Of a stretch of 64,000 nt of DNA, positions 1-58,402 are shown piece by piece (position 1 is the stretch's first letter; every line of letters starts with the position of its first letter). The position numbers and the translations under genes are program-made. Origin of the DNA: Hydractinia symbiolongicarpus (taxonomy: Eukaryota > Cnidaria > Hydrozoa > Anthoathecata > Hydractiniidae); NCBI RefSeq assembly GCF_029227915.1, contig NC_079888.1, positions 18,514,001-18,578,000 on the forward strand. The letters run 5' to 3'. The notes beneath the pieces are model-generated. The model made no database searches. It worked only from the letters and a program-made list of their open reading frames with translations, and had not been told where the DNA came from.

Positions 1-402
1 CTGTATCCAAATTTACCGAGTGCAACCGTACAAGGCGATATGCAGGATGAAGGACAGGTCTTTAGGGCAAGCTGGTCTCCGGAACGCCTCTAAACGGTTA
101 CGTCTTAAATCCAAAAAACTTAAGAGTATAAGACTGCTTGCAGAAGCGAAATTAAACTCTATCGTCGATCTTATTTCGAAGGCAATGGAGAATGGTATAA
201 TCAGCGAATAGGAATATAGCCTGATTAGCCGGGAAAAGGAGAGGTATATGCTGCTGAAGGAACAGATGCGGCAGCGCTTTAATAGGATAGTAAATAGTAT
301 TAACGAACAAGAGCGTGCCCAACTAGTTGCCAGAGGTGGAGAGGAAGGGAGACAGGACGTTTTCAAAAAACTTCAATCTGTGCAGTATGCGAGCGGTACC
401 TA
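1..402 (+). pseudogene. Coiled-coil-like protein, 3' part, one in-frame TAG
   Basis: The frame is open from the window edge to a TAG at 209-211, continues open for a further 63 codons and ends with TAG at 400-402. The product is Lys/Arg/Glu-rich and helical (for example LLAEAKLNSIVDLISKAM, then EKERYMLLKEQMRQRF). The in-frame TAG sits between acidic residues where a GAG would fit, so a single point mutation is the simple explanation. The 5' part lies outside the window. I do not recognise the family with certainty; similar small helical proteins occur near mobile elements in invertebrates, from memory only. It lies in the same decayed neighbourhood as the USP fragment. Confidence 0.4.
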
Positions 403-472
403 GAGTCCCCACCTGAGTATGAGCCTTAAATATATTTCATAGGCCTATAAGACCTATAAATTATATGGTTTT

Positions 473-867
473 TTAATCCTCACCCAGCAACCATTCCTTT
501 TTGAATTCCTTGTATCGACATTCTGTAATATGTACCTGAGGGTAGTAGTTTTTGCCTTGTACATAGACCGATGAAATAGCCAGAATGGCACTGGCTTGGC
601 AAGGTTCATCATACGGTATCGGCATACCGTAAAATTTTGTCGTGATTTTGTCCTTGTAACATTTGAGTTTAGCGTTCACATAACTAGAGCTACCACAAGG
701 TCCCATGTATGGTAGCCTATAATATACCGTTGATCCTTACCCCCGTTAGCAGGAATGACACCCGACACTGTCAGGTAGTCCACGTTGATGTCGTTGATGT
801 CTGTAAAGGTAGTAGCAAATGAGTAGAATAATTTAGGTTTGACAAGCTCATTTTCAAATTTCAGCAT
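473..867 (-). pseudogene. Unrecognised protein, frameshifted
   Basis: Two overlapping minus-strand frames read as one degraded protein. The first (867 to about 700) begins MLKFENELVKPKLFYSF and runs to YIIGYHTWDL. The second (706 to 473) has GPCGSSSYVNAKLKCYKD and ends KEFKKEWLLGED. They overlap near 676-706, consistent with one indel. Composition is protein-like rather than repeat-like. No motif I can name. It may belong to the same older mobile element or gene cluster as the flanking helical protein and USP, which is inference. Confidence 0.35.
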
Positions 868-1798
868 TTTGTTTATTGTATATTTCGAACGACGTCAGAG
901 AATTACATGTCATTGTACATACGCAACCTCCCCATTATATGTGATATATTTATGGTAGCAGTACCAGCAAAGCGTCTTATCCCTTACAACGAACCTCCGA
1001 CCACAGGTGCATCTATCGTACGCATCCAATATACTTTCACAGTCGTTACAATATTCCATTTATTTATCACAGCTACAAGGACGATCATCTTCTAGGGCAT
1101 TAAGATGATCACATGGGTCTTGAATCCTCTGCTTATTATACTTTTCTCTCTCCAATTCTTGTACGCGTGATAAGGCTAAAGTGGCAGAGAGAAACTGGTA
1201 CCGGGTAGGAAGGTCATGAATACCATACTTTTAAAGCTATATTGACAGTTATAGTATCTTACAACCAGGGATGTAATATAACGTTTCAAACCAACCCTAA
1301 AAATTCCTCTTGCGTCAGATCAACCCCAAATCTTTTGAGACGTCTCCAGTCCGGGGCAGGCCTTCCTTTATAAGGTTATTGTTAACGCTGTAGAGCAAGT
1401 CAAACTCATAGATAATTCTTCCCATAGAGGCGTTCACAAAGTTAGCGACAGCCATCCAGAAGTTCTTATTCAATTATGAGCCAGCAAAACCATATAGATG
1501 TCATAAAATATCCTTTGTTCCAGCTAGTAAACGTCTTCCCACCAAAAAGTGTTAAAAAATTCAAGGAATCCTTAACCTGGCCTTTTATTGGAGATTATTG
1601 TCAGACTTAGATACCTTATCTTGCTGTAACTCAACTTTATGTTGAAGTAGGAGCTAGGGGATTTTGTTCCGAAACAGTTAGAATCTGCCTCCGTCGCCTC
1701 GGCTTTTCTAACATGTCTGTGCGTTCCACTCTAAAATCTCTTACTGAGTCATCTATGCGATCGTCGTTGTACATCTGGCTATCTCGAGATTCTTTGTC
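868..1798. other. No confident gene; possible decayed coding on minus strand
   Basis: Short frames only. A minus-strand stretch around 1330-1480 translates to protein-like text (FWMAVANFVNASMGRIIYEF) with stops either side, suggesting another relic of the same decayed block. No RNA gene or terminal repeat seen. Confidence 0.3.
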
Positions 1799-2309
1799 TT
1801 GGATTCATCCTGGCAGGGATCCACAGCATACCGCTCAATTTATACCAACTGTTTCAAAGAAATCAACAAGTCACAAGCAACTTCGACCAGTAGCTTTAAG
1901 GACACGAATCCCCAAGGCGTAACAAAGAGCTCCACTACCTTGCCTGCACAAGAATCACTAGGCAGCAACAGCGGCTTGCTAAATTTGGGCAACACATGTT
2001 ACATCAATTCCATCTTGCAATGTTTTTATGTGTTACCCGCAGTCGCTACAGCCATCTCTGCAAATGATTCCAATATGGCGATAGGTAAAAGTTTTGTAAG
2101 TATTCTCCGCCAATTATCCTCCTCCAAGGTTCCAGTGAACACTTCTTCATTTCTAAATGCATTAAAAGGCCATGTTTCTAATGCAAGGGGCGCTGCTTTT
2201 AATCAGTTCTCTCAGCAAGATGCCCTAGAGATTCTTGAGTATCTCATGCCAGAGTTGGCCACAGCCTTTCCTTACTTTACTAGATTATTCAACACTGGTG
2301 TAAAAATCT
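1799..2309 (+). pseudogene. Ubiquitin-specific protease (USP), N-terminal half
   Basis: The frame carries the USP Cys-box GLLNLGNTCYINSILQCF at about 1973-2026, with the catalytic Cys in GNTCYIN, followed by the QQDALEILEYL helix typical of the family (around 2213-2245). USPs cleave ubiquitin from proteins. The frame is open, without introns, up to the left end of the KDZ transposon at 2310, where it runs into transposon sequence and stops at 2333-2335. The rest of the gene resumes at 16206. The exact start is uncertain: the frame opens with TTG at 1799, and no upstream ATG or promoter is convincing. Lack of introns suggests a retrocopy or a captured gene. Confidence 0.8.
2303..2309. repeat. 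Left target-site duplication of KDZ element
   Basis: AAAATCT, repeated at 16206-16212. The base before it (A) does not match the base after the right copy, so 7 bp is the supported length. The reconstructed empty site reads GTGTA-AAAATC-TACAC, itself a palindrome around the insertion point. Confidence 0.8.
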
Positions 2310-2422
2310 CACCCTATTCGGTAAACTGTATATGATAGTTATCCCGCTCCGCTGTAAAACGGAGAACGATAAACGGCGCACTCCGTTGTTGCGCTGTTGC
2401 TCCAGCGATAGCGGAGAGCGAT
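2310..2422 (+). repeat. Left terminal inverted repeat of KDZ element
   Basis: Begins CACCCTATTCGGTAAACTG and ends GCGGAGAGCGAT. It is richer in CpG than the surroundings and contains internal GGAG/CTCC palindromes. Pairs with 16093-16205. Confidence 0.9.
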
Positions 2423-2461
2423 GCTTATCGAAGGTTTTGCTATTTGCCTATGAAATAAAAA

Positions 2462-5400
2462 ATGGCGGCGTCGTTGCGAGAAAAAGAATTCAACGTTGAT
2501 ATTTTTACTATTTTAAATCATCAAAATGAACACGATGGTAATAATAAAAAGGAAGATATGGATGCTGGAGTCAATGCAAAAGAAATGTACAAGCTTAAAT
2601 TTGAAGGTCTTGTGCGAATTTGTTTTTTTTAGCTTGCTTTTTCTGTTTGCTAGCTAGCTAGCAGCTAGAGCTACATATCCTAGCCATAATAGCTAGCTGT
2701 GAGCCCTTATCCTCCTTATTCCACGATATCTAATCAGCTGCAATGTGACATGGTTACAGCCCTTTTTAGCTGGTCAGCTGACTAGCTATGCTATATAGAT
2801 GAGTTCCAGCAGTGTGACGTCATTTGTTTACTTTTTGGCGGTAAAGCTCTAGGGCTCTGGCATTCAGAGCTTGCTGAAGAGAGGTTTTTTCCTGTGCATT
2901 TCTTCTCGCGGAAACGTCATTGAGGTTTTCAACTACTATCGAGTGTAGATTGATGCCTTCTGATTGAATAAAAATAACCTCGCTTCACCTAGCGTCCCCA
3001 TCCTTTTTCCTGCCACCCAAATGGAAAGCCAAAGAACTTCCTGCTGAAAATGTAAGCAATGGAATTCATCTAGCTATAGCTATATCATCAGTCAAAGGCT
3101 TGACTGTTCTGCATCAGCCAGAGGACATATCCCCAGTAGTATATTGATTTAGGAGCCTTCAAAAATTTATCTTGGGCCCCATTAACAAGATTTTGTCCGT
3201 TAAGGTCTTCACCTCTTAACGGATCCTCCCCCAAAAAACTGAAATGATTCGCTGGTTTACGACAATATGCTCTTCCTACTAGCTCGTGATGTTGAGACTG
3301 TGCTGCCATCTTGATGCCTTCTAAAACATTTTGGGGTTGATTATAATGCTCTGACATTTTCAGTCAAGTTATAGAACAATAAAAAATGGTTTTTAATGGA
3401 CAATATCCTATTATCAGGGCCCAAAATATTTTTAGAAGGCCCCTTTGCTAAAGCGCAGGTATCAATAGGTAGTAGCTATAGCTAGCTAGCTATAGCTATG
3501 CTGATAGTTGTGGAAGTCATTTTTGAAGCAGTCTGTTTTGCAGGGAATTAATCAAATTTAAAACATATATAGCTATACCTTCCGCTCCCAAATAAGTTAA
3601 TCTCAAAACGTTCATAACATTATTACTACTGAACAAAAAATCATTTGTTTCGCAAATCAAATTGTAAAAACTAGAAATTTAACCTTAAAGATAGTGTGTT
3701 TCCCAACTTCGTTCAGTTCTCCACCATATCGAAATGGTTATATACTTGTTCAAACTTATTTAGGATATATATATTTATATATACTCCAATTGTGACCAAT
3801 TTTGACGATGTTACTACGTTGCTCAGGGGTGCGCTACATATATGAAAAATCGGAGCTATAGGGGTTTTAACACGCTATATATGCCCCTGTATATGCTTTT
3901 AGTAACTTTATTTCAGATTTAGCATTAAATCCAACGACAAAACCTGAAATGTTACTGGCGTTGACAAAAAACTTCCCTATGAGTCCCCTATTAAAATTTC
4001 CCTATGACTCCCCTATTAAAATTTCATCATTGTCCGACGAGGAACAAAGTGAGGTCAAAATTACTTTGATGTTTGCCGCTTTTCACTCTAGCTCTTTTTC
4101 AAGATAGTGATCGAATTTGCATTCAAGTTTTATTTTTTATATGCTCTCTTATAAATGCAAATGGGAAAAAGGGATATATTTTCTTAAACTATGTTATAAG
4201 TAAAGTCAATGAGCTATATCAGGACAAGATAGAGAAACTATCACAAGAACAAATTCACCATTAATAATCATGAAATGATGGTCTTTTTAATATTTCAGAA
4301 TAAATTGCATAAGTCTAACAGCTAATTAAGAAATTACTAATTATAACCTGAGAAAATTAAATGCAGTCTCAAAGAAATACTTAATTTCTAATTTTACTAG
4401 GCAGAGTGGTTGCTGTACTTGGACATTGAAGTGCTATATTTAGACTCTGTTGGCTGCTTTTTCCCCTTATTCTTTTAGATACTTGGCTTGAACGTTTGTT
4501 GAACTCAGTGGATAACTATTTCGTACTTTAAAAGACAGTAAGGCAGTATTTCCTCATGTTAGGTTATCCTGTAGGTTAGGTTTTCAATTCATTTCACCAT
4601 TTTTTGCCTAAAATTTGTAATGAATCAACTTACATCGACTTTTATAGGTACATAATTCTTTTTCATGATATGTCAAGTAATCCAGCAAATATTTATTTTG
4701 TGTAGATGTTTGGAATCATATCAGGTGCACAGTTGCTCCAGTTTTAAGTGGAAAATCTCAAAGGAAAAGAAAGGTTCTGAAAAAAGTAAAGGAGGGTATT
4801 CAGGTGGGTTTTTATAAAGATTGCTGTTTTTAGCAAACCTTTTTTAAAAGTATTTATTTGTACAACTGGCTGCTGTATAACTATATTGCATTTTTTTCTG
4901 CAGAAAAAAGTGGAGAAAATGTTTGAAACTGACGTAGATGGAAGTGAGACGATCAAACATATTGAGAGTGACCTATACGAACGATTTCAGGTGTGTAAGC
5001 AGATCTTCAGATATGTTATAATATGATTTAAGAATTTTATTAGACATAGAACCTCAGGTTTTACAAGTAGCATGCGTTTAAATATAGCTGTGCTTTAGGT
5101 TCGGTTGGAGTTGATAAAGTACATGAAAGGACAAGAGGGAAGTGAATCTGTTGTCAGCGGCTGCTATCCCTTACCGGAAAGAAATAAAGTAATGTTTTTT
5201 CTGTGATATAGTATTTATCTTTTTACATTTTCTTAACTTACAGTTTAAAGTACATTCTTCTTAGCTTGATGGACAAGATGAATGTGATGCCGATAGTCAA
5301 GAAACAAAAAGCTCTGAAACTGATGAAGTAAATAAATTATTTCCTTTGGTTATTTTTGGGTCTCTTGCCATTTACCTTAAATGTGCCTCGAGATTTCCCT

Positions 5401-6639
5401 TGTGTGTATATGCTTACAAACCTTAAAATATGGCAAAAAATATAAATAAAGACCTTGAAAAAAAATTTAATTTAATAAAATTTTATAAAAATTGACACAC
5501 ACAAATTAAATTGTTCTGTCTATCATAAGGTATAGGTCTTGTGTTATTTTTAGCTTTCCAATGATGTCCCACTAAGAAAGAAGAAAAAATGGTCGTACAT
5601 GCCTACAAAACAAGACGAACTGGTAGAAAAACTGGATGGCGCCAATAAGCGGTTGACGAGACTAGAAAATTTAACATCAACATTGAGCTATCGGATCCAC
5701 GAATTGAAAGAAAAAAATGCGTCGCTGCTGCTAAGAAATGCCGAATTCACAAGGTTAAAGCTGGTAGAACAATTAGGCATGAATCGATCAGTACAAATGG
5801 TTGATGCGTCCTTGTTTGCGAGTCGCTTTCATACAGGAGATCCACTATTGCAAGAGGAAACCCCTTGCATTCTAGATTCAGCGTTCATTTCTACGCTGAA
5901 AATAACAGATTTTTGTGAAGGTGTTTTTGCTTCTACTAAAAGGGCTATGTTCGATGACGGAGATACTGTGATATTGAAAACGTTTTCAAAAGATTGTCGT
6001 CAAAATAACATTAAAAATGTTGCCCATGTAAGTCACGAGCACCGGATTTTGAAGTTTATTGGTCGGCACGAAAACCTAGTGAGCAGCATTGGAGTCGTGC
6101 ATTTCGATCAATCGTATTATTCCGTGCTTCATTACGTTGCTGGTTAGACTCTTGATCGCCATTGGAAATTGGGTTTTCCAGACATTTCTTCAACTTCAGT
6201 TTTTAAGCGAATTCTGACAGGCGTTGCAAGCGGAATTAGCTTCTTGCATAGTAAGGGTGTGTTACACAACCATATCGTTGCAGACAATGTAATTCTTCAC
6301 GGACAGGATTTGTTTCCTATTCTGATAGGATTCAGTTTTGCTTGTCGTGCAACATGTGTTAGGAACAGTTGCGTAGATGTGATCAAACTGTTTCCAGATA
6401 AAGCGCATTTAGCACCAGAGTTATTTCAGGGTTGTCCTGTGTCGTATAGTACGGACATATTTAGTTATGGGAAACTCCTCGATAACTATTTGAAAAATAT
6501 GTCTGTCATGGATGACAAAGCGCGAGATAAGTTGGAATCCTTCTCGATACAGTGTATGGATTGGAGAGCGCCTCATCGATTACCGCACAAATTTCTTTTC
6601 AGGAGAGTGGGCTTGCTTCTGACGGAACTAGGGTACTAG
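2462..6639 (+). pseudogene. Pseudokinase-like multi-exon gene carried by the KDZ element
   Basis: Probable exons: 2462-2606 (ATG, MAASLREKEF), 3917-about 4053, then 4706-4803, 4904-4990, 5099-5188, 5265-5327 and 5554-6639, all with AG/GT borders. The last five join in one frame. A helical stretch at 4073-4262 (DSDRICIQVLFFICSL) looks coding but is out of frame with 3917-4053. The last exon has a coiled-coil segment, then a protein-kinase fold: VILKTF with the N-lobe Lys, HEHRIL for helix C, HNHIVADN in place of HRDxKxxN, IGF in place of DFG, LAPEL for APE. Both catalytic aspartates are absent (His and Gly instead), so no phosphotransfer is expected. A single in-frame TAG lies at 6145-6147 at the hinge. 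It resembles a kinase family (LHSKGxLHND type) that I recall as abundant in cnidarians. Either decayed or, less likely, a truncated functional product. Confidence 0.65.
2630..3916. other. Probable first intron; AGCT-rich, no clear gene
   Basis: Tandem AGCT/TAGC tracts at 2650-2700 and 3470-3500. A minus-strand frame at 3088-3357 (89 codons, MSEHYNQPQNVLEGIKMAA) is protein-like but has no splice or motif support. Confidence 0.35.
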
Positions 6640-7553
6640 TTCCATAAGATTGATAGGCAAAGATAAAAATATTTTCAACTGTAAATTGTATTTCCTTCTT
6701 CCAATTTCCCTCATGCACCCACCAAGTTTGAAAAATGATAAATAGTGGATAAAATTAAGTCTATACCTTAAGGGAAGAAATTTTGGTGGGAAAAAATTTG
6801 GTGAAAAGTTAACTTGGCGGAATTGACGGAGAGGGAAAAAAATAATTTTGGCGGGAATTTATTTGTGCGGGCGGCGTCAATACCACCAAATTTTCTTCCC
6901 GCAAAAAGATTTCTTCCCTTGGAAGTTGTAATTTTTCGACTTTCTTCTCTTTCCAAACTGCAGTACGTCCAGAAATTGACGCAAGTACGCGAAATTACTT
7001 TAATCAGAAAATTAGATGTGGGTGGCCATTCTGCTGTGTCAGCACATTAACGCGGGTTAAGACAAGGATATTAGAAACAGTATATTTATCCTATGGAGGC
7101 ATTCTCGGAGCCATTATTTTTTGTATGTATGGATTAGTTATGATATTTAAAAAAGCTACATTCGCAATTGTCGTTCGATATCGAATTCGCAAAAATAAAT
7201 ATCGCAAAACCACAACCTCGAACCCAGGGCCTGTAGCGTTTATTTGATATGATATCAAAAAAACGCTACAGGCCCTGGGTTCGAGGTTGGCAAAACCATA
7301 TTTTCTCAATGAATCAAAAAAATTAAATCTAGCAATAATATATACAGCGTTAAATATCCTGTTAAGGTACTTGTTCAAGCTCGACCTTAGTCAGGGATTT
7401 TTTCTTAGGGCGGGGAAATCAAAAGGACAAAGGGTGGAAAAATTACGCTGGGTCTCAAACGAATTTTCTGCGGTCGGAATACTGATCGATAAATCCGCGA
7501 AAGTTTCTTAGTAATGAACAACAATAATAGCTTTTTCTCTCCTTTTTTGACAA
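6640..7553. repeat. Intergenic inverted-repeat clusters inside the KDZ element
   Basis: Two nested structures. At about 6770-6920, AAGGGAAGAAATTTT and its complement near 6905-6920 bound a GGCGGGAA-rich 150-bp unit like a miniature element. At 7213-7288 lies a perfect hairpin (separate entry). No gene is supported; the frames here are compositional. Confidence 0.45.
7213..7288. repeat. Long perfect hairpin
   Basis: CCTCGAACCCAGGGCCTGTA and onward is followed after a short loop by its exact complement ending CCCTGGGTTCGAGG; arms are about 23-26 bp. The loop itself contains TTGATATGATATCAA. Related CCTCGTTCCCAGGGC ends occur at about 36409-36424 and 55087-55103, suggesting a dispersed family. 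Confidence 0.8.
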
Positions 7554-8719
7554 TTAAACGTTACTAAGAAAATATTCTTCTAAATCAGGCTTTGGTAAAT
7601 TTTCCGCCACTTCCCATGTTGGAGAACGATAGCCAATCCATTTAACCTGATATTCTCTCCGATCATTGACCTCTCTGTGAGTCATTATAAAGTCAATGAA
7701 ACCTTCGTTTTGGGCAGACTTATCCAAAACTTCTCGAAGAGTCACAACCTTTCCAGATTTGTTTGGAACATTGTCCACTAAATTAAGTGACTGGGTATTT
7801 ATATCAAGCTCTTCGCGTTGAATGGCCTCTTTAGATTTTCGCTTTCTTCCATTAAATTCACGCACAACTGTTTTCTCAGACCCTACATTATCTTTTGAGC
7901 TATGCGGTTGTTCAATTCGCTCTAGCTCCTGCTCCTGTTGGTTTAAATTGACCGTTTCGGATGACTCGGCAATGCAACTTGAATTAGTTGTATGGTTTGT
8001 TATAATTGGAACTAAACAAGAAGTATGGTGCATTTTAATTATTTTCTAATCAGCAGTATATATCACAGAAATAATAAAAAAGACCAGCGTAAAACAGCGA
8101 GAAGAAACTTAACCATGATAACAGATGTTTTACCAGTGAAAGATATGTGTTGCATATTCTCTTTTAATATTTTTAGCTCGACTTGGGAACAATTGCTAGG
8201 CTTTTTAAACATAAAACCGGCCGGTAACCCATTTACTGTTACGTGACCATTATCGACTTGTTTGTAGGGAACTGTTGTACGCTTATCACGTGATGCCAAA
8301 TCTATAATAGGAAGAGAAAACTAATGTAATTGAACACTAGAAGCAGATTACAAACCTCTTTTTAAATAAGTAAAGCAAAGCGGCGTACATATTTTTTGAT
8401 TCAGTTCCAAGGTTACTTCTTTTCTTAAAGATGTTGTTTCTATGGTTGCTTCAACCGGTACACCTAGTATAATAAATTTGAAGAAAGAAAATAATGAAGC
8501 TAATCGAAACATGGATTGTAGCGCATTTAAAAAATCACACTGGCGAATTGTAAACAGAAGGCTGTGCTTACTCATTATGTGACTGGCGAACTTCCATTCC
8601 AAATCATTTTGAGAGTCAACAAAATCAATTCCTTTTTGACTCCCGTATACAGTGACTTTATTTCCCGTTCTTTCTGTGTCCATATCCATTATAACGATAT
8701 CCATTCCGATGGATTCCAT
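7554..8719 (-). CDS. Chromodomain protein, 311 aa, four exons
   Basis: Exons (minus): 8719-8572, 8463-8356, 8301-8114, 8045-7554; all borders are GT/AG and phases agree, giving 311 codons plus stop. The C-terminus is a chromodomain: FIDFIMTHREVNDRREYQVK, then WIGYRSPTWEVAENL, the aromatic/EYxVKWxGY..TWE pattern that binds methyl-lysine tails or related partners. The middle has VTVNGLPAGFMFKKPS, which recalls the GTF2I-type repeat (GLPxGxxFKxPS), a weak resemblance. A basic GRKRKSK stretch could be a nuclear signal. The start is the first ATG after an AG at about 8729, so a 5' exon may be missing. It follows the homeodomain-HMG gene on the same strand by about 100 bp. Nuclear chromatin role inferred; function unknown. 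Confidence 0.75.
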
Positions 8720-8826
8720 CTCTCTACACTAAATAGTAAAGTTTTACGATTCAATATTCTGTTATCCCTAATCTCATATTGTTGAAAATATAGTAAAAAT
8801 TACGAATTCTTAGGTGGTAAAATATT

Positions 8827-9659
8827 TCAAGTTCCGGAATATTTTAATTTAATAACATTTTTTGGCACGTTCCATGTAGACAGTTGACGCATCAGCTCCT
8901 TAAAAAACAAAGTTTTTGTACTAACAATTTTTTCAATTTTTTCCCTCATTCTGCGAACAGCCGACGATTGACTCTGTTGAGATAAACTTGAGAAATTTGG
9001 CTTCTCAACTGTAGAAGCTTGGGCGTTATAGGTTTTCCTATCTTCTTCCGGTAACGCCGTCCAGGCTTTATTCATATCCGCCATTTTGTTGACTGGATTA
9101 TCTAAACAACAAAAAACTAGCGAGTATTATGTACTTATAATATTTTCAGTTTATAGACTTACTAATCTCATTTTTAGCTTCTCTTCTTTTCAAACTCAGT
9201 TGGATGCGTACTATAATAATGGCTGGCAATAATATGTCAATAAGATGATACAACGATATAAAATAAGTATTGACAACAAGCTAAACCTTTCATATATTGT
9301 TTACGAAACATGTCAAAGCCAGAAGGTTTTCTTTCGGGTAGTTTTGTCGACTTTACTTGTGGAGGTCTTCTCTTGCTATTAATCCAATCCTACACCAAAA
9401 AGAAAAACAAGGTCAACTTTGTAATCATAATAATGGTATTGCCGTAATTCTGTTTTTTAAATGTACCAAAAAGTGTTTCGACAGAACAAACCTTGATTTT
9501 CGATTCACTTAGGCCTGTTTTCAATACCGCTTGCTCTAACAAAGATCGCGCCAACGTATTGTCACTTTTATAGCTCTTCATTCCAGCTTCATAAAGTTCT
9601 TCGAGGACAGTGACTTGTTCTGGGGTCTTTTTTACTAGCTTTCTCTTATTTTCAGCCAT
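8827..9659 (-). CDS. Homeodomain-like + HMG-box protein, 181 aa, three exons
   Basis: Exons (minus): 9659-9492, 9389-9287, 9101-8827; borders GT/AG, phases agree, total 182 codons with stop. Residues about 5-67 form a homeodomain-like three-helix unit: TPEQVTVLEELYEAGMKS, then LARSLLEQAVLKTG, then LSESKIKDWINSKRR. The recognition helix keeps Trp48, but homeodomain Asn51 appears to be Ser. It leads at once into an HMG box: RKPSGFDMFRKQYMK, DNPVNKMADMNKAW and LPEEDRKTYNAQA. The tail is helical and ends LSTWNVPKNVIK, which loosely echoes a chromodomain end. A DNA-binding nuclear protein is expected. I know no standard family with this short fusion. The intact frame inside a transposon suggests it is kept by selection or inserted recently. 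Confidence 0.78.
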
Positions 9660-11304
9660 GTTCTACTGTTTTTTGAACTACGATGATAATTATCAAACAT
9701 ACACAGTTGGCTATTTCCAAAAAATATAAGATCAGTTGGGATGAATCGGAACAAAAACAGTTTTGACATAGCAGTCAGTTAACTCACCCCTACAAAATGT
9801 CGCGTGTATTTGATTTCGTTACTGCAAAGTATGTGGAGTATGTAAAGCACAATTTGTGGGTATTGTTACCCGAACTAGCAAAAATATGAGCGTCTGGAAT
9901 ATCTTACCAGAATTTTTTTTTTTTTGCTTTTCCCTCGACAAAATTTTCAGCCTGCGACATTTTGTCCGCACAAGTTTACATAATTGCATAAAGCCGGAAA
10001 GAAAAAAACTTTATTTTCATAAAATTCGACGAAATATGATGATTTATTATGAACTGTGAAATATAATTTCGCGAAAATTCATTCAACCGCGAATCGCGAT
10101 TCTCTTTTTTGAAAATCTAGTTTTTTTACATTACCAGATTGACAGAAACTTCTGGTTACATCACAAACCCTTATACAAGCGCTAATTTTTATCTTATGCA
10201 ATCAAGACTAGCACCTGCCGTAAAATGAAATTTTTCAGAAAAATGTCAGAACACACAGCTCAAATTGATCCGAAATTTATATTCACAGCACTGTTCCTTT
10301 CACTGGACTTGACATCGAAATAGACAAATAACTGCCGTTAAAAGAAATCATGTCGAAATTGACACTGTAGCTCGACCCGATCTCAGTGAGACATGTCAGA
10401 ACACAGCACAAAGTGACCCGAATTTCTATTACGCAGCACTAGTCATCTCTCTGGGACTAATATCGGAAATGACAAATAACTACCGTTAAAAGAAATCATG
10501 TCGAAATTGACACTGTAGCTCGACCCGATCTCAGTGAGACATGTCAGAACACAGTACAAAGTGACCCGAATTTCTATTACACAGTTTTCTTAAAAACAAA
10601 AAAACAACAAGATAAGACCTACTTACTAATTTTAGCTTGTGTTAATTTAGCAAGACAAATTTACGCATTTTTTATAAGAACAATGAACTTGGAGAAAGTT
10701 TCTTACTTTTTTACAAACATTTTTTTTGATTATTTGTTTAACGTCCCTGGAAACAAATCCATGTAGATCCTGCAATGTTTTTAACTATTTCTTCGATAAA
10801 TTTAGGCTACGCTAAATTAGTACACGTGGATGCCATGGGAACGAGAGAAAACGGGACGAGCATTAAAATGTATTCCAGCGACACAAATTACAAAGTAAAC
10901 TTGCAATATATAAGACAAAGGAAGCATTAGTAACTTTTTTTTATGACATCACATAAATACCGCGTCCGTACAAAGTAGAAGTGGACATATCTAACCTACT
11001 TATTAATATCATTAAAAAATCTGTAAAATCTGTAACAGATAAATATTTGTTTTACATATTCTATAAATCTGTAACAAAATTTAACAGAGGCGCAAAATTT
11101 ATATTCTATATATATCTTAAATGAGGTGATTACTTAGAAGAGCCAAAGCTTTCGAAACACAATTTCAAGCTGTGATAGTCAGATGGTTACAAGGAATTAT
11201 ATTGCTATCCATGTGTCACCAAGTAATAATAGCAAAAGAAAATATAATAAATCAATTCTGTAAAAACACTAACAAATATATATATCGAAATATGCAGTTA
11301 CAGG
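9660..11304. other. Intergenic part of KDZ element with direct repeats
   Basis: No supported gene. A 31-codon plus-strand frame near 9798 (ATGTCGCGTGTATTTGATTT) ends before a GT and could be a first exon, unsupported. A 148-bp direct repeat lies at 10242-10585 (separate entry). Confidence 0.4.
10242..10585. repeat. About 148-bp tandem direct repeat, 2.3 copies
   Basis: ATGTCAGAACACAG starts near 10242, 10393 and 10541, each followed by AAAGTGACCCGAATTT-like text and, later in the unit, GAAATTGACACTGTAGCTCG. Copies two and three are nearly identical. Confidence 0.85.
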
Positions 11305-14300
11305 TCATGGGTTTTCTTCATCAGATTCATCTGAAGATTGTCCATCGCAATAAACAGTCACATCAAAATCATCTTCGAGATTGTTGCTTTCGACATCCAT
11401 AAATAGTTTCTGCATATTTTCTACTGTATTTCGTACATAATTTAGTTTTTCTATAACAAAGATTTTTTTTGGAGAATCGTTATTATAAATAGCAGTAGCC
11501 AATGAGGATTCCATTTCTCTATAGTAGTTTAATACGTGCTGCATTTCCGTACGAACAATTTGAAGCTCCTCGGTAGCACGACACTTGCGCAGGTAAAATT
11601 GTACGCACGTACTTTTTACTGATGCAGGAATGTTATGTGAAGTGTTATTAACCTAAAATAAAGTGTCCGTAACAAATTAAAGAACTCGTCATTTTTTTAC
11701 CATGCATAATTTTTAGAGAATTACCTGATCAACCGTAGTAGTGTTTAAATATATCCTGGAATTGACGTCCAATGCATCTTTATACAACACATCTTCGTAC
11801 ACACCACATTCTCTGTTCGTCTGATTTAACGACTCAACTAAATTCTTTAGGTCATTGCAGATTTTATTGATTTGCACTGATAAACGATTGCATATCGAAG
11901 AACCATCTATCAAAGTTAAGTAAAATAAATCAACAAAGAATAAAAAAACAAAGATTGTACACATATTTCATCGGGCTGATATAAATTTATAGTTTACCTG
12001 CATATCGTTTCTTTAAAGTCAGTAACATTAACCTTTCAGTTGCACGAGTATGTAAAGTATCCAAAGTGGTTTTTACAGCATTCTGAACGAATTTGCGATG
12101 ATGATACGTGTACTGATTTGAGGTTATACTCCAACGATCGTTTACATCGTGCTTTTTTTCGAAACTCGAAAGACCAGATTCCAACCTAAATAACAATAAC
12201 AAAAAGCCATCTAAGAACGAAACAAAAAACTACCGGATGGTTAGTGTGTTGTGGCATAAACTAAATGTTCACATACCTGTTTAGTTTTATCCTATGTCTC
12301 GCAGTATCAGAAACACTACTACTTAACAGGAGTAATGTATTTTCGTTATTCAGCTCTTTAATTTTAGTATAATATTTGAATTCCCAACCAACCTCTAAAG
12401 ATAACAATTTCACATTGTATAACAAATCAGTTAATCAAGTTCTTCCTTTAACAACAAATAAGTGTAAGTGTAACAAATAAGTACCTTGCTCTACAACACT
12501 TTTCCATTTAATTTTAGACTCTTCCTCCAACTTCCATGAGTGTATAACCTCGTCTGTGATATTATCTAAAAACGTTAAGTTTCAAGAACTCTCACATTCT
12601 TTCAGATTTGCCAACAAATAAAACCAAATGTATCCCATTAACAACTCTATTCTCACGAAACACGATTTTAAGAAAATATGTCACCTAGGTTTAAACACAA
12701 AGTTTGGATTTCTGCAGAACTAGTCTGATAGACAGCATTGGCTTTTTGATACCAGCCCACAAGTGTTTTCCCTAATGAACACAAGTAATTCAAAAATACA
12801 ACAACTAAATGCTAAAACTTCTTGATCACTTACTTAAAATTTCACAGGTTTTGTATATACAATATTATAATTAAACAATATATAGATACATGCGTACCTA
12901 ATATTTCTAACTTAGTCATTGTAAAATGATTTAAAGCATCACTCAAAAAGTCAACACGGTGAGCTGAAGTCATCTCTTTCGTGATTTTTGAAAACGATCT
13001 CAAATAGGACCAGAGTCTTTCCATCAGTTCCCCATCCATTAAACCAAAACCTTCCATTCTACGGATCGAATGTTGTACCTAACAATGAAAATGTGGAAAA
13101 CGGTTACTATTACAAAGATTCTGTATGTCAGTTGTCAAAGTAATAATAACAATAACAACAATAACAACAACAACAAACACAACAATAATGAAAAAGAAAC
13201 AAACCTGACAAGAACTTTTGTGCCCATATGCGTGAAATACTGGTATCCCTAATTTGAATTTGGGGTATTTACTTAACGTTCCTTTTTTCTAAAATATAGA
13301 TCAATATATACTGTTCAACATATATGTTTCAAGCTAAACCAGAATGCATATAGAAAACGAATAACCTACAGTTAAATGTTTCTTCAACAGACAGGCAATA
13401 TCATACATAATATGGACGTCAATATCTTTACCCAACACTTCAGCTAGGATTTTATTCATCATTAATACCGCATAACCAATTCTAATCATATGAAAAGAAA
13501 ATATCATTGAATATTCTATAATAAACAACATCGCAGACTGAAAATTATTTTGTCCAAGAAATATTTTTGTGTATATAGTTTACATTAATAGAAAGTTTAT
13601 GCAATATATAAAAAGACTACTAACCTCTCGCCATGTCGCATGTTAAGAAAGAGCTTTGGAATTTCATGCCGACAAGATACACCAAAAACACCTGTCACAC
13701 TAAGCTTTGAACTTTTTCTTTTTGAACGGATACGGTTCCCTGCTTGAAAGTTATTACATTCCTAAAGTGATTTCAGACTTTATTACAACGAGGAAGTTTT
13801 GGATTAAATTAGGGTGATGAAGTGTATCTCACCTTATTTTCCACAGCTTTGTCATCATAGCTAGACATGAATGTGTCAACTTCGTCATCTTCAATAAAAT
13901 GATTTTTGTCATTGTTTGGGGTATTCTTTGATTTTGATGCAGAGCTTTTTAAAACAAGTCCAAAATTAGCATCCATGCAATAGAAAACACTCCCAGCATC
14001 CTAAAAGCATTACAACAAAATTACCAGAGTATATAAAAAAGAAATACAAAAATATCCATAAATGACAAGCTGCCATACTATTGGACATGCTGGACATTGG
14101 TTGGGTTTTTTTCCTGTTAAGTCTGAAAACCATAGATCCCTCAACTGTCGCTGGAATTGACGGTATTGGTCAATGGAGTCTGTTTGCATAAAACGTGTTA
14201 ATACGCGTTTCTAGAAAAAAATTATGAACTATATAATATAATTATAACAAGCCCATTGCTGCTAAATTAAACAATTTGGCTCTCTTCTGACAATAAATAG

Positions 14301-15691
14301 GCTTTCTTATTAAAAAAGGTTTTGTTGTTAGTCCTAACCTATAAATTCAAACCTTAAACTTACCAGAGTTTGGTTATGCATACCAGTTTTCCATGACATT
14401 CCATCAATAAATGAAGTGAAAGAAATTTTACCCTCCATTTGCAATGCAACGAATTGGTCCAGCAATTTTATTGAGATGGCAGTAGAAGGTTTAGTAGGTG
14501 TTGATGGCCATAAATCATACTTTAACAACTTCGAAAATTCAGATTCACATGTGCAGAACCAGACTTCACACTGATGGAGACAACCTATAAGTTCAGAATA
14601 TAAGGGCTTATCCAACTGCTAACTGTACAAATAGAGCACTCACATCATAGTCACATGTATATATTACCTTTTTCTGAAACAATTGTTATTACTCGAAAAT
14701 ATTTGTTTGAACAGGAATAACAGTGAGCATCGTGTAATTCGTTGTGAAATGTATATGTCATCATGTCAAAGTTTGGCTATGAAAAAATAAAACATCACAA
14801 GTATATATATAATATATATAAATCAAATATATATATATATACATATAAACACGAACTTTAAGTTAAAACTTTAAGTAGCAAAAATGAATGTAATTTTTTC
14901 TTGAAAACAAAACATAAAAATAATATATATAATATATATATAAGTTTTTTTAGAGTGAATGCAGATTTTTTTCACAATGCCAAACCCTCCTGAAAGCGCC
15001 TGCACTTTTTACAATGTTTATTCTATTTATATGTAAAACTGTCACATCTTATTATCCAGGAGGTTAACATTACACACATAACATCAAGCGCATAGCTGAT
15101 AAGCATGGCAAGTTTGGTAAGGACTAGTTACTAGCTAAATGGCGCAACTTGCTTCACTTGCAGGCTCTGTATAGCTTATATATATATACACACCTTTAAA
15201 GTAATTGCATTATGAAATGCAATGTTCTTATGGGAAACGTCTGCACAACCCTGGCAATATGTCGCAAGTGGACCACAGTCTTTGCACCAAACAAGCCCTT
15301 CCTCAAACGACGAATCACATACCGTACACTTTTGAAGAAGCAAAAGGTTGAATTTTTCAGCATAATTTTCACAAATGTTAGAAGTGACAGAACTCCAGGA
15401 ATGTAATTCTTTCTCTTTGTTTCTTTCATAACCGCCACATCTTTTTTTTTTAACTATATCCCCACTCAACAAAAACTGTACATTATCATGTTCTTCAATA
15501 TCAAATTGTTCGGTTTGCACTAAAGGGTCCTCAATAGCACTTGTATTATTTGTTTCTTCTATGGTAGTTATGCTTGCAGAGGAATTGCTTGTCACCGGCT
15601 GAAATGACTTGAAAACACTTCTTGTATAACCGTTTCTGAGAGTTGTGCGAATGATCCGTGACCCTTTCCTGTTAGACTTTGCAAAAGGCAT
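11305..15691 (-). CDS. KDZ-superfamily transposase, about 901 aa, 15 exons
   Basis: Exons (minus, 5' to 3'): 15691-15194, 14776-14668, 14584-14364, 14210-14079, 14000-13833, 13761-13621 (or 13625), 13537-13370, 13288-13205, 13078-12898, 12771-12685, 12565-12485, 12394-12277, 12185-11998, 11906-11725, 11652-11305. Phases agree throughout if exon 6 ends at 13621 (donor GTAGTC); the stronger-looking donor 4 bases earlier would shift the frame. A cysteine cluster lies at about residues 118-160 (KCTVCDSSF, WCKDCG, YCQGCADVSH), like the CxC zinc domains fused to KDZ transposases. Then LWPSTPTKPSTAISIKLLDQ, CMDANFGL (candidate first Asp, about 330), HIMYDIACLL (second Asp, about 469) and GFGLMDGELMERLW (Glu, about 524), the family hallmarks. 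An acidic C-terminus follows. Fifteen introns is unusual for a transposase. It should cut and paste the surrounding element. Confidence 0.85.
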
Positions 15692-15692
15692 A

Positions 15693-16092
15693 ATATCTTA
15701 CTGCTATAATAATTCAAGCAAAACATGGAGATGAGCTGATGAGCTAGATAGCTAGCTGCAACACTTGCCTTCCACACTGAACTGACTAAACATTGAACAG
15801 GGGTGGGGGCTAGCTGCTAAAAACAAACAGTACAGAGGTAGTCTAAAATTTGGCTGACAACCATTCAACATAACTACAACACTATTTGTAGTGCTGTTAC
15901 AAGGAAAACACTCTCAGAACTGCTAGAAAAGTGATTTGTCTCAACATATTTTGTCCAGGATTGTGGTGGTCACGTTGGTTTGGCCATAGTGATGTTTGGC
16001 GAAGCAACGCAGCCAGCCAGAAAAATAAATGCACCACTATTCACCACAAAAAGTAATGCACCAACAACCAGCGTTCCATGCAAACGGCAAAT
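15693..16092. other. Non-coding 5' side of transposase to right TIR
   Basis: Contains the presumed promoter of the minus-strand transposase. No TATA box is convincing. AGCTAGATAGCTAGCT tract near 15745. No other gene seen. Confidence 0.4.
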
Positions 16093-16205
16093 ATCGCTCT
16101 CCGCTATCGCTGGAGCAACAGCGCAGCAACGGAACGCGGGGTTTATCGTTCTCCTTTATACAGCGGAGCGGGATAACTATCATATACAGTTTACCGAATA
16201 GGGTG
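16093..16205 (-). repeat. Right terminal inverted repeat of KDZ element
   Basis: Inverted copy of 2310-2422: 113 bp, 7 mismatches clustered in the middle, ending CCGAATAGGGTG. Followed by AAAATCT at 16206-16212. Confidence 0.9.
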
Positions 16206-16785
16206 AAAATCTACACTACTTGCAGCGCTAACAATAATATTAGCACCTCTGAGCAAGTAAGTCCATTTCTTCAACTGCCCTTGACATCGACTGTACAATC
16301 TTCAATAGATAACGTTTTGGAGAGCGAAGAATTGTCAGGTGTCAACTCGTACTTCCGTCACTACTGCAATAGTTACCAAACTGCAACAGTTGAAAAAGAG
16401 GTCACAGAGCGCAGTTCAATTTTGGTTCTGCAATTAAAGCGCTTTACCTATAACAAAGGTCTTGTGTCTAAGGTGTGTTATCCTGTCACATCTTACCCGG
16501 GCACCGTTTCTATACCTATCACTGTAGACAGTGAAGCTCTTGTCGCAAGAACTACAACTTAAGGGCTGTAATTAACCACTCTGGAAATTTGAACAATGGC
16601 CATTACACTACTGTTGCTTATAACAACGTGCATCGCAAGCTGTTTCATTGCAACGACAGAGCAGTGGTCCCTTGCAAACAAAGCTTGCTTAATGGTGTAC
16701 AACTTTACATCCTTTTCCTTGAAGAGCTTAGGAAAAATTGCAGTCAGCACCACAACTTCCAGCATATGTCAGCAAGGGGGTTTGA
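16206..16785 (+). pseudogene. Ubiquitin-specific protease, C-terminal half, frameshifted
   Basis: Continues the USP of 1799-2309 across the transposon: the reading frame resumes IYTTCSANNNIS. SSILVLQLKRFTYNK is the conserved USP LQLKRF strand, and at 16610-16640 the His-box NNGHYTTVAYNNVH carries the catalytic His, followed by HCNDRAVVP. The frame shifts by one base near 16545 (a TAA appears at 16559-16561 in the first frame while the His-box is in the next), so the gene was damaged independently of, or after, the insertion. It ends in a low-complexity TAT/ATT tract at 16790-16830. Confidence 0.78.
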
Positions 16786-16985
16786 CTATTCTTATTTTTA
16801 TTATTATTATTATTATTATTATTTTGTAGTCTTGTCTTTGGAGAGTGACGACTCCACTTATTACCCCAGTCAAAAAGGAAAAAACAAGAAAATCAGAAAA
16901 CAAAATAAAAATTATGTCAGCAAGGGAGTTTGACTGCACTGGTCTTATCTTTGGAGAGTGACGAATCCACTTCTTACCCTAGTCA
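16769..16985. repeat. Direct repeat with ATT microsatellite
   Basis: GTCAGCAAGGGGGTTTGACT at 16769 and GTCAGCAAGGGAGTTTGACT at 16916 each lead to TTTGGAGAGTGACGA and TCCACTT. A (TTA)n run lies between them. Duplication of about 70 bp. Confidence 0.75.
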
Positions 16986-24212: not shown

Positions 24213-27200
24213 TCATCATTTGTTCTCAATGATCAAATACGTTGTTGGTTCTTAAATACGTCGTTGATTCTCGATGATCAAATATTTCGTTGGTTCGTGA
24301 AGATCAACTGCGTCGTTGGTTCTCGAAGATCGAAAACGTCGTTGGTTCGTGAAGATCAACTGCGTCGTTGGTTCTCGATGATCTAATACATCGTTGGTTC
24401 TCGATGATCAAATACGTCGTTGGTTCTCGATGATCAAATACGTCGTTGGTTCTCGATGATCAAATACATCGTTGGTTCTCGATGATCAAATACATCGTTG
24501 GTTCTCGATGATCTAATCCATCGTTGGTTCTCGATGATCAAATACGTCGTTGGTTCTCGATGATCAAATACGTCGTTGGTTCTCGATGATCTAATACATC
24601 GTTGGTTCTCGATGATCAAATACGTCGTTGGTTCTCGATGATCAAATACATCGTTGGTTCTCGATGATCAAATACGTCGTTGGTTCTCGATGCTCAAATA
24701 CGTCGTTGGTTCTCGATGATCAAATACGTCGTTGGTTCTCGATGATCAAATACATCGTTGGTTCTCGATGATCAAGTACGTCGTTGGTTCTCGAAAAACA
24801 AAGGCGTCGTTGGTTTTCGATGATCAAATACATCGTTGGTTCTCGATGATCAAATATGTCGTTGGTTCGTGATAATCAAATACGTCGTTGGTTCTCGATG
24901 ATCAAATACGTCGTTGGTTCTCGATGATCTAATCCATCGTTGGTTCTCGATGATCAAATACGTCGTTGGTTCTCGATGATCAAATACATCGTTGGTTCTC
25001 GATGATCAAATACGTCGTTGGTTCTCGATGATCAAATACATCGTTGGTTCTTGATGATCAAATACGTCGTTGGTTCTCGATGATCAAATACATCGTTGGT
25101 TCTCGATGATCAAATACGTCGTTGGTTCCCGAAAAACAAAGGCGTCGTTGGTTTTCGATGATCAAATACATCGTTGGTTCTCGATGATCAAATACGTCGT
25201 TGGTTCTCGATGATCAAATACATCGTTGGTACTCGATGATCAAATACGTCGTTGGTTCTCGAAAAACAAAGGCGTCGTTGGTTCTCGATGATCAAATACA
25301 TCGTTGGTTCTCGATGATCAAATACATCGTTGGTTCTCGATGATCTAATCCATCGTTGGTTCTCGATGATCAAATACGTCGTTGGTTCTCGATGATCAAA
25401 TACGTCGTTGGTTCTCGATGATCTAATACATCGTTGGTTCTCGATGATCAAATACATCGTTGGTTCTCGATGATCTAATCCATCGTTGGTTCTCGATGAT
25501 CAAATACGTCGTTGGTTCTCGATGATCAAATACATCGTTGGTTCTCGATGATCAAATACGTCGTTGGTTCTCGATGATCTAATACATCGTTGGTTCTCGA
25601 TGATCAAATACGTCGTTGGTTCTCGATGATCAAATACATCGTTGGTTCTCGATGATCAAATACGTCGTTGGTTCTCGAAAAACAAAGGCGTCGTTGGTTC
25701 TCGATGATCAAATACATCGTTGGTTCTCGATGATCAAATACGTCGTTGGTTCTCGATGATCTAATACATCGTTGGTTCTCGATGATCAAATACGTCGTTG
25801 GTTCTCGATGATCAAATACATCGTTGGTTCTCGATGATCAAATACGTCGTTGGTTCTCGATGCTCAAATACGTCGTTGGTTCTCGATGATCAAATACGTC
25901 GTTGGTTCTCGATGATCAAATACATCGTTGGTTCTCGATGATCTAATCCATCGTTGGTTCTCGATGATCAAATACGTCGTTGGTTCTCGATGATCAAATA
26001 CATCGTTGGTTCTCGATGATCAAATACGTCGTTGGTTCTCGATGCTCAAATACGTCGTTGGTTCTCGATGATCAAATACGTCGTTGGTTCTCGATGATCT
26101 AATCCATCGTTGGTTCTCGATGATCAAATACGTCGTTGGTTCTCGATGATCAAATACATCGTTGGTTCTCGATGATCAAATACGTCGTTGGTTCTCGATG
26201 ATCTAATACATCGTTGGTTCTCGATGATCAAATACGTCGTTGGTTCTCGATGATCAAATACATCGTTGGTTCTCGATGATCAAATACATCGTTGGTTCTC
26301 GATGATCAAATACGTCGTTGGTTCTCGATGATCTAATACATCGTTGGTTCTCGATGATCAAATACGTCGTTGGTTCTCGATGATCAAATACATCGTTGGT
26401 TCTCGATGATCAAATACGTCGTTGGTTCTCGAAAAACAAAGGCGTCGTTGGTTCTCGATGATCAAATACATCGTTGGTTCTCGATGATCAAATACGTCGT
26501 TGGTTCTCGATGATCTAATACATCGTTGGTTCTCGATGATCAAATACGTCGTTGGTTCTCGATGATCAAATACATCGTTGGTTCTCGATGATCAAATACG
26601 TCGTTGGTTCTCGATGCTCAAATACGTCGTTGGTTCTCGATGATCAAATACGTCGTTGGTTCTCGATGATCAAATACATCGTTGGTTCTCGATGATCTAA
26701 TCCATCGTTGGTTCTCGATGATCAAATACGTCGTTGGTTCTCGATGATCAAATACATCGTTGGTTCTCGATGATCAAATACGTCGTTGGTTCTCGATGCT
26801 CAAATACGTCGTTGGTTCTCGATGATCAAATACGTCGTTGGTTCTCGATGATCTAATCCATCGTTGGTTCTCGATGATCAAATACGTCGTTGGTTCTCGA
26901 TGATCAAATACATCGTTGGTTCTCGATGATCAAATACGTCGTTGGTTCTCGATGATCTAATACATCGTTGGTTCTCGATGATCAAATACGTCGTTGGTTC
27001 TCGATGATCAAATACATCGTTGGTTCTCGATGATCAAATACGTCGTTGGTTCTCGAAAAACAAAGGCGTCGTTGGTTCTCGATGATCAAATACATCGTTG
27101 GTTCTCGATGATCAAATACGTCGTTGGTTCTCGATGATCTAATACATCGTTGGTTCTCGATGATCAAATACGTCGTTGGTTCTCGATGATCAAATACATC

Positions 27201-58387: not shown

Positions 58388-58398
58388 TGGTAGCAGAG
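58388..58398 (+). promoter_or_regulatory. Primer binding site, initiator tRNA-Met
   Basis: TGGTAGCAGAG directly after the LTR is complementary to the 3' end of eukaryotic initiator tRNA-Met including CCA. Confidence 0.85.
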
Positions 58399-58402
58399 AA
58401 AA

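Follow-up and report, generated by a model that had tools for sequence, protein, structure and literature searches.

A 64,000-nucleotide stretch of the Hydractinia symbiolongicarpus genome (contig NC_079888.1, positions 18,514,001 to 18,578,000; hereafter the window) carries a complete KDZ transposon of 13,896 bp at window 2310-16205. The usual description of an animal cut-and-paste transposon is of a transposase flanked by its ends; here the ends enclose the transposase gene and two partner genes, one encoding a regulator with a GTF2I repeat and a chromodomain and the other a pseudokinase. We consider it probable that the element is a three-gene cut-and-paste transposon with a chromatin-reading partner and a pseudokinase that works by binding. 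The gene set was found at several insertion sites and is jointly conserved across two element families (A, which includes the window's copy, and D). The term cargo undersells the two partners; the set behaves as part of the element.

Ends, insertion site and gene content

The insertion is delimited by the following features.

1748..2302, plus strand: interrupted ubiquitin carboxyl-terminal hydrolase (UCH)-like open reading frame (ORF), left part, on the host side outside the element
2303..2309: target-site duplication AAAATCT, left copy
2310..2422, plus strand: left terminal inverted repeat (TIR), starting CACCC
16093..16205, minus strand: right TIR, ending GGGTG
16206..16212: target-site duplication AAAATCT, right copy
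16206..16562, plus strand: UCH-like ORF, right part; the domain continues in another frame from 16535

The inverted arms (2309-2422 and 16093-16206) are 94% complementary and the ends measure 113 bp. AAAATCT is exact on both element flanks, 7 bp being the sole matching length among those checked (3-12 bp). The element sits in frame within the ubiquitin-hydrolase-like ORF: when the flanks were joined minus one AAAATCT copy, a single open frame of 303 amino acids (aa) with a UCH match was obtained, scoring 70.3 bits compared with 52.3 and 13.3 bits for the two sides separately. Because the joined flanks restore an open UCH-like frame, the insertion is real, and its 7-bp size can be read independently from the host frame. 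The UCH-like gene (window 1748-16930) changes frame near 16540, a breakage that may predate or postdate the insertion. Scans of viral, prokaryote and plasmid collections, made mostly by short exact patterns and possibly leaving out the element's own genome, returned no relatives, and Rfam and tRNA scans of the window gave no matches.

The three genes are laid out as follows.

11305..15691, minus strand: KDZ transposase gene, 15 exons, 877 aa, with a CxC2 cysteine cluster (residues 182-269) followed by the KDZ domain (residues 325-538)
7554..9659, minus strand: regulator gene, 7 exons (9659-9492, 9389-9287, 9101-8926, 8728-8572, 8463-8356, 8301-8134, 8011-7554; some borders hand-set), 445 aa, with homeodomain-like, HMG-like, GTF2I repeat and chromodomain segments
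9287..9659, minus strand: homeodomain-like exons of the regulator; exon 9389-9287 includes the first part of the HMG-like segment
8134..8301, minus strand: exon holding most of the GTF2I-like repeat
7554..7700, minus strand: chromodomain at the regulator C-terminus (approximate)
4705..6639, plus strand: coiled-coil-like and pseudokinase gene, exons 4705-4803, 4904-4990, 5099-5188, 5265-5327 and 5554-6639
6145-6147, plus strand: in-frame TAG in the pseudokinase, absent from copies C14a, C15 and C2a
2462..2608, plus strand: pseudokinase exon 1 (probable), beginning ~40 bp in from the left end (2462-2611 in the gene finder's output)

Pfam KDZ (PF18758) matched the transposase at 1.2e-49 over profile positions 3-215 of 217, and CxC2 (1.5e-13) and CxC1 (8.7e-8) were matched as well. 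Thirteen transposase exons came from a simple gene finder and two were added by eye using KDZ-typical motifs. Each gene was scored by the gene finder with codon models derived from the other two, and dinucleotide shuffles served as the comparison. The scores were 107.5 for the transposase (shuffle maximum 22.2, 15 shuffles), 59.5 for the regulator (maximum 25.0, 40 shuffles) and 79.9 for the kinase region 4600-6750 (maximum 23.3, 40 shuffles). In the same run the unaided finder returned 11 transposase exons and did not recover the middle exons of the regulator.

Of the regulator, the finder recovered exon 1, a small portion of exon 2 and three stretches farther along; the remaining exons were placed by hand, in phase and with GT-AG borders, and the finder stretch 8356-8728 was divided in two. 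A division into two separate genes, one homeodomain-HMG and one chromodomain, was tried and rejected. Because splicing from the 8926 donor to the 8728 acceptor preserves the phase, and the same hand-set junction was also read in the family-D relative C2d at ~43% identity, the two pieces are best read, from their exon phases, as one gene on one strand. An extra exon at 9163-9210 was dropped; in the relative C6 its neighbours join directly in the same phase (exon 2 of C6 itself carries a frame change).

Two regulator domains, GTF2I (2.9e-7) and Chromo (9.6e-6), score above their Pfam cut-offs in the 445-aa protein, and NCBIfam gave no matches to it. Against PDB, all four matches to the GTF2I repeat at an expectation value (E) of up to 0.1 were TFII-I/GTF2IRD chains (best 6e-5), as were all four obtained with a five-sequence profile (best 4.7e-6); one such repeat stretch is present per regulator protein. 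Similarly, all seven chromodomain matches at E up to 0.01 were CBX/HP1 chromodomains (best CBX3, 2.9e-5). The aligned W and Y agree with the HP1 pattern, in which these residues serve in the chromodomain cage. The homeodomain-like segment of the window's copy scored 16.8 bits (E 0.0061 on the isolated piece) against a Pfam cut-off of 22.9, that of C2d reached 22.7 bits (9e-5), and C6 gave no match. A profile of three relatives matched homeodomain chains in 8 of 12 PDB matches at E up to 0.1 (best MAT-alpha2, 1.5e-5), the other four being designed repeat proteins over 18 residues. The HMG-like segment scored 16.1 bits against a cut-off of 25.4 (E 0.016 on the isolated piece), and 21.4 against 22.4 bits solely with a splice picked to fit; 9 of 10 PDB matches to its profile were HMG-box proteins (HMGB, TFAM), at weak E of 0.084-0.99.

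The C-terminal piece of the pseudokinase matched Pfam Pkinase at 3.5e-10, and its C2d counterpart at 1.1e-20. HRD and DFG are the standard names of the kinase catalytic motifs. The first reads HNH in the window's copy and HNN (three copies), HHN or HNS in five family-D copies; the second is GFS in the same six copies, whereas the family-A copy C7a has GLS. The catalytic aspartates of both motifs, expected of an active kinase, are thus missing in families A and D. A 57-nt intron spanning the stop codon was considered and not adopted, as the stretch fits the kinase hinge and C7a reads through it. A 49-aa piece of the probable first exon is 100% identical in C2a, C15 and C14a; this exon was not found in family D.

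Two further features lie inside the element. A 148-bp tandem repeat occupies 10243-10584, between the regulator and the transposase; in this interval, alignments with the four other family-A copies are broken or overlap. The second feature is a hairpin at 7213-7289, where the 3' ends of the two partner genes face each other. Its 29-bp arms pair perfectly (fold z-score -17) and the 9-bp GCAAAACCA stands on both sides; from its structure it may be a small non-autonomous insertion.

The original prediction, made from the letters of the window, had described a complete element with 113-bp inverted ends and target duplications, a 15-exon KDZ transposase and a pseudokinase-like protein. These stand, the transposase length being corrected from 901 to 877 aa. 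It had also described a homeodomain-HMG protein and a chromodomain protein; the corresponding segments are best read as parts of a single protein instead of two. Of the families it had proposed for profile comparison, KDZ and CxC were matched in the transposase, Chromo scores above the Pfam cut-off in the regulator, and homeodomain and HMG score below theirs.

Copies of the gene set in the genome

The window's own assembly (480,894,487 bp, 76 contigs) was searched with each part of the element, repeat counts being lower bounds. There were at least 82 KDZ matches (110 of 110 candidates scored), at least 101 matches to regulator exons (92 of 102), at least 63 to the pseudokinase (71 of 71) and at least 30 to the 113-bp end. 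For GTF2I, at least 8 matches were obtained at E 0.001 (18 of 18 candidates scored), and all 8 fell within regulator copies. Beyond the window, family A comprises the following loci.

C14:3630670-3644409: main parts 99.3-99.6% identical, both ends, duplication CTACTTT
C2:11234336-11249719: 98.9-99.8% identical, both ends, duplication GAGAAAG
C15:7495280-7513386: 98.5-99.5% identical in the matched parts read, interrupted, both ends, duplication GTACAGG
C7:22442451-22471418 (C7a): 92-97% identical, interrupted, pseudokinase partly deleted, both ends, duplication TTTATTT
C7:32253814-32285096: sixth locus, with the duplication and flank of C7a, inverted; counted as the same insertion

Family A therefore occupies five insertion sites matching three genes (C7a its pseudokinase only partially), with five different 7-bp duplications. 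The sixth locus retains more of the pseudokinase than C7a, with one stop. No mutual similarity was seen among 13 flank pieces of at most 600 bp, taken from 7 copies of the two families (left side only for C15). Across both families, both ends were read at 9 sites. Eight of these (the window's own, C14a, C2a, C15, C7a at the same site as C7b, C13d, C11d and C7c) have an exact 7-bp duplication and C8 has none; C15, C7b, C7c and C8 were compared by eye. On C7, two element pairs stand at mirrored coordinates (22.03-22.47 and 32.25-32.75 Mb), C7a and C7b having identical flanks and duplication; the arrangement suggests either a large duplication in inverted orientation or an artefact of assembly.

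These copies bear on whether the element still moves. It is improbable that the element is now immobile, its genes decaying or adopted by the host. The stop in the pseudokinases of the window's copy and of C11, together with the many deleted or interrupted copies, would fit such a state; against it, separate sites hold copies ~99% identical whose duplications are intact, which argues for fairly recent movement, and C14a, C15 and C2a lack the stop of the window's copy. We infer that the element may move today.

Family D has ends of its own at two loci.

C11:25155809-25168512: 12,704 bp, 113-bp ends starting CACCC, duplication ACGAAAC
C13:19986370-19996346 (C13d): 9,977 bp, 113-bp ends starting CACCC, duplication AAACATG

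The ends of C13d are 54-55% identical, ungapped, to the family-A left end. The C11 copy matches transposase residues 1-846, regulator residues 55-459 and the pseudokinase to residue 402. Three loci on C2 (27.42, 6.62 and 6.52 Mb) also match all three genes, with no ends in the 20 kb read; those at 6.62 and 6.52 Mb have flanking sequence in common and may be one insertion duplicated. At all five family-D loci, and in the family-A copies read, the transposase and the regulator point in the same direction and the pseudokinase faces both. Gene order and orientation are thus common to families A and D, whose transposases are 54-56% identical in aligned codons.

When match coordinates were clustered with gaps of up to 28 kb (all KDZ matches, one coordinate per place for regulator and pseudokinase), 13 clusters contained all three genes, 6 the regulator and the pseudokinase, and 1 the transposase and the regulator; single-gene clusters numbered 4 for the regulator, 3 for the pseudokinase and 50 for KDZ. 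The 13 include the single C7 insertion twice, and C2 6.30, 6.52 and 6.62 Mb, which are possible duplicates. The 50 KDZ-only clusters mostly match other stretches of the KDZ profile, some with open frames of >500 aa, and look like other KDZ lineages. In all six clusters that have both partners and no KDZ match (C1 has three, C6 two and C14:1.92 one), an element end, whole or partial, lies within ~2.2 kb of the pseudokinase. In one split case, the pseudokinase and the regulator lie 250 kb apart (C1:24.40 and 24.65 Mb). Near-identical remnants of regulator and pseudokinase with a partial element end and no KDZ match occur at C1 28.44, 30.75 and 31.86 Mb, likely a segmental duplication judging by their similarity.

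We next consider conservation of the three proteins, measured as nonsynonymous (dN) and synonymous (dS) change over codons taken from tblastn alignments, in which best-kept parts are favoured. Between the window's copy and C2d, identity in codons was 54% for the transposase (335 codons), 43% for the regulator (314) and 43% for the pseudokinase (377), with dN of 0.42, 0.55 and 0.56, respectively, and saturated dS. Between the window's copy and C6, dN was 0.318 for the regulator and 0.285 for the pseudokinase, dS again being saturated. Against C7a, dN/dS was 0.66 for the transposase (844 codons), 0.41 for the regulator (425) and 0.47 for the pseudokinase (174); within family D, that of the pseudokinase was 0.28-0.93 over six pairs with few changes. 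Because the aligned proteins remain 43-62% alike between families while silent sites are saturated, selection appears to have kept all three genes, and to us the values between families point to prolonged constraint on each of the three proteins. For both partners C6 is closer to the window's copy than family D is, an order of identity that fits joint inheritance.

Passive hitchhiking, in which host genes were captured once and carried along, is very improbable in the light of these data. Eukaryotic transposons do capture genes, and the extra genes have been lost from some copies in the genome. However, two families whose aligned codons are 43-56% alike and whose dS is saturated both carry this set of three genes, ordered and oriented identically, no GTF2I match was found outside regulator copies at E 0.001 (a search of limited sensitivity), and the six clusters of partners without KDZ all lie near an element end. 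Least probable of all is that the partner genes belong to a second transposon nested in the KDZ element. Breaks resembling nested insertions were seen in C15, C2a and C7a, and the hairpin with its 9-bp duplications lies between the partner genes; against this, no inverted pair of at least 15 bp stands beside either gene in the stretches scanned, just two inverted pairs (15-16 bp) occur around both genes, and the family-D layout is identical. With no convincing bracketing repeats, a nested origin of the partners was rejected.

Elsewhere in the window, a Copia-type retroelement with an open 1446-aa frame (RVT_2 1.9e-30, rve 6e-8) lies at 58394-62734, and a tandem array of ~79 copies of a 52-bp unit, inside which is an open minus-strand frame of 155 aa, at 24222-28381.

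Proposed roles of the partner genes

In the reading we favour, the transposase, with its CxC zinc cluster and KDZ DDE domain, would cut at the 113-bp ends and insert with a 7-bp stagger; the 7-bp size is observed, and the staggered cut is presumed by analogy with the DDE family. The regulator would be a dedicated DNA-binding, histone-reading partner, whose most likely job, by analogy, would be to bring the transposase and the element to methyl-marked chromatin, or to keep both active there. RAG2, the chromatin-reading partner of RAG1, provides such an analogy. The pseudokinase probably works by binding, as a scaffold or decoy, rather than by phosphorylation, because the catalytic aspartates are missing in both families.

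A close rival to this targeting or linking role, possible although on balance unlikely, is that the regulator shields the element from silencing or activates element promoters, and does not target insertion. It would then bind element DNA via the homeodomain, HMG and GTF2I segments while the chromodomain reads repressive methyl-histone, and the genes would stay on. Fungal KDZ and other transposons have repeatedly captured TET/JBP genes, which the authors of PMC12730594 describe, in the part of that article cited here, as a likely escape from silencing; moreover, the probable first exon of the pseudokinase begins close inside the element end. Against this, no mark-removing enzyme was called among the predicted proteins of the element.

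Several observations weigh against a three-gene element with a chromatin-reading partner. The GTF2I search missed known repeats in C15, C2a and family D, and weak ones elsewhere are possible; the GTF2I exon yielded structure models of low confidence (predicted local distance difference test scores of 55.5 and 50.9), and the HMG box, being sub-threshold, is suggestive by sequence likeness. The C11 pseudokinase contains one stop, and C13d is without part of the transposase and the regulator. The dN/dS values against C7a are just moderately below 1, and the three nearest copies, with 0-11 changes, are uninformative on selection. Partners are also not required in each copy. C8:21671478-21672895 has ends (93% and 85%) without the extra genes or the transposase core, and C7:22025944-22028533 has ends (80-81%) and the first transposase exons only. 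C13:6.26 Mb keeps the transposase and one family-D end (one end read) and neither partner; it matches C11 at 97-99%, with C11 positions 171-6575 (6.4 kb, both partners) absent and ~1.4 kb without a match in their place. From their alignments, we read these three copies as internal deletions. The original prediction had named copies with the same ends and no cargo as the finding that would speak against it, and these copies answer to that description in part. Its cargo claim is otherwise borne out by the genome search with the 113-bp end, which recovered near-identical copies holding the same extra genes between ends with target duplications of their own, and by family D as a further, distant element with the same gene set in the same order and orientation. 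The influence on chromatin that it suggested is an inference.

That two genes were kept with the transposase across families saturated at silent sites suggests that both chromatin reading and the pseudokinase are required in the life cycle of the element. If this is true, a hydrozoan would offer a system in which KDZ control can be tested. The GTF2I repeat also gains a transposon-borne cnidarian relative, which bears on the origin of the TFII-I family, a family that includes genes lost in Williams-Beuren syndrome. We tentatively suggest, as a doubtful extension, that an animal lineage of KDZ elements depends on an obligate system of three proteins, its chromatin-reading member steering or protecting the element, and that the GTF2I repeat in vertebrate TFII-I proteins goes back to such a transposon regulator, much as other transcription factors have transposon ancestry.

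Comparison with known systems

The element shares with the KDZ superfamily (Kyakuja, Dileera and Zisupton) the KDZ domain with a preceding CxC cluster, the ends and the target duplications. Its multi-exon transposase resembles those of Zisupton in fish and Pristionchus, as given in the cited portion of PMC9297572, and a gene for a 'likely KDZ transposase' appears in the portion of PMC9926710 listing the Hydractinia sex locus. It differs in its partner genes, which are not named in the extracts of the KDZ literature found, and its lineage is one of many in the genome, as the 50 KDZ-only clusters indicate. No report of this gene set appears in the extracts of the openly licensed literature searched; in the same literature, Kyakuja with cnidarian returned none, and GTF2I with cnidaria returned titles off the subject.

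In the excerpt of PMC12730594 on Zisupton the target duplication is 8 bp, whereas here each of the 8 sites that have a duplication shows one of 7 bp. Fungal TET-positive Kyakuja elements have 7-bp duplications, CA..TG termini and a chromatin gene beside the transposase in common with the present element, but their two described families are without TIRs (PMC12730594), whereas families A and D have TIRs of 113 bp. In a Pfam scan confined to the predicted proteins, as opposed to all six frames of the element, no TET/JBP dioxygenase was found. The element is thus KDZ by domain, not Zisupton by duplication size, and Kyakuja-like in its 7 bp and CA..TG but with TIRs. Fungal TET-positive IS3EU elements, in the section of PMC12730594 describing them, likewise have a chromatin gene between oppositely pointing transposase and kinase genes; they belong to another transposase superfamily, with 6-bp duplications and an alpha-kinase in contrast to the protein-kinase-fold pseudokinase here, and the likeness is a resemblance, not kinship.

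With the TFII-I family, the regulator shares one GTF2I-like repeat, a repeat called unique to that family in the extract of PMC3493543. Members of that family have several repeats (five in GTF2IRD1, according to the same extract), whereas here a single one is joined to homeodomain-like and chromodomain segments. In mammalian GTF2IRD2, GTF2I repeats are fused to a Charlie8 hAT transposase (PMC10641963, in the passage cited) and so also meet transposon sequence; that is a host gene with a hAT remnant, whereas here the repeat is encoded within a KDZ element. Finally, fish Zisupton with F-box and CxC7, in the part of PMC12062965 that treats them, are KDZ element proteins joined to further domains, and the CxC zinc cluster is proposed there to recognise DNA or chromatin proteins. 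In those fish elements the F-box is fused to the element protein, whereas in the Hydractinia element the chromodomain and the GTF2I repeat are supplied by a gene separate from that of the transposase.

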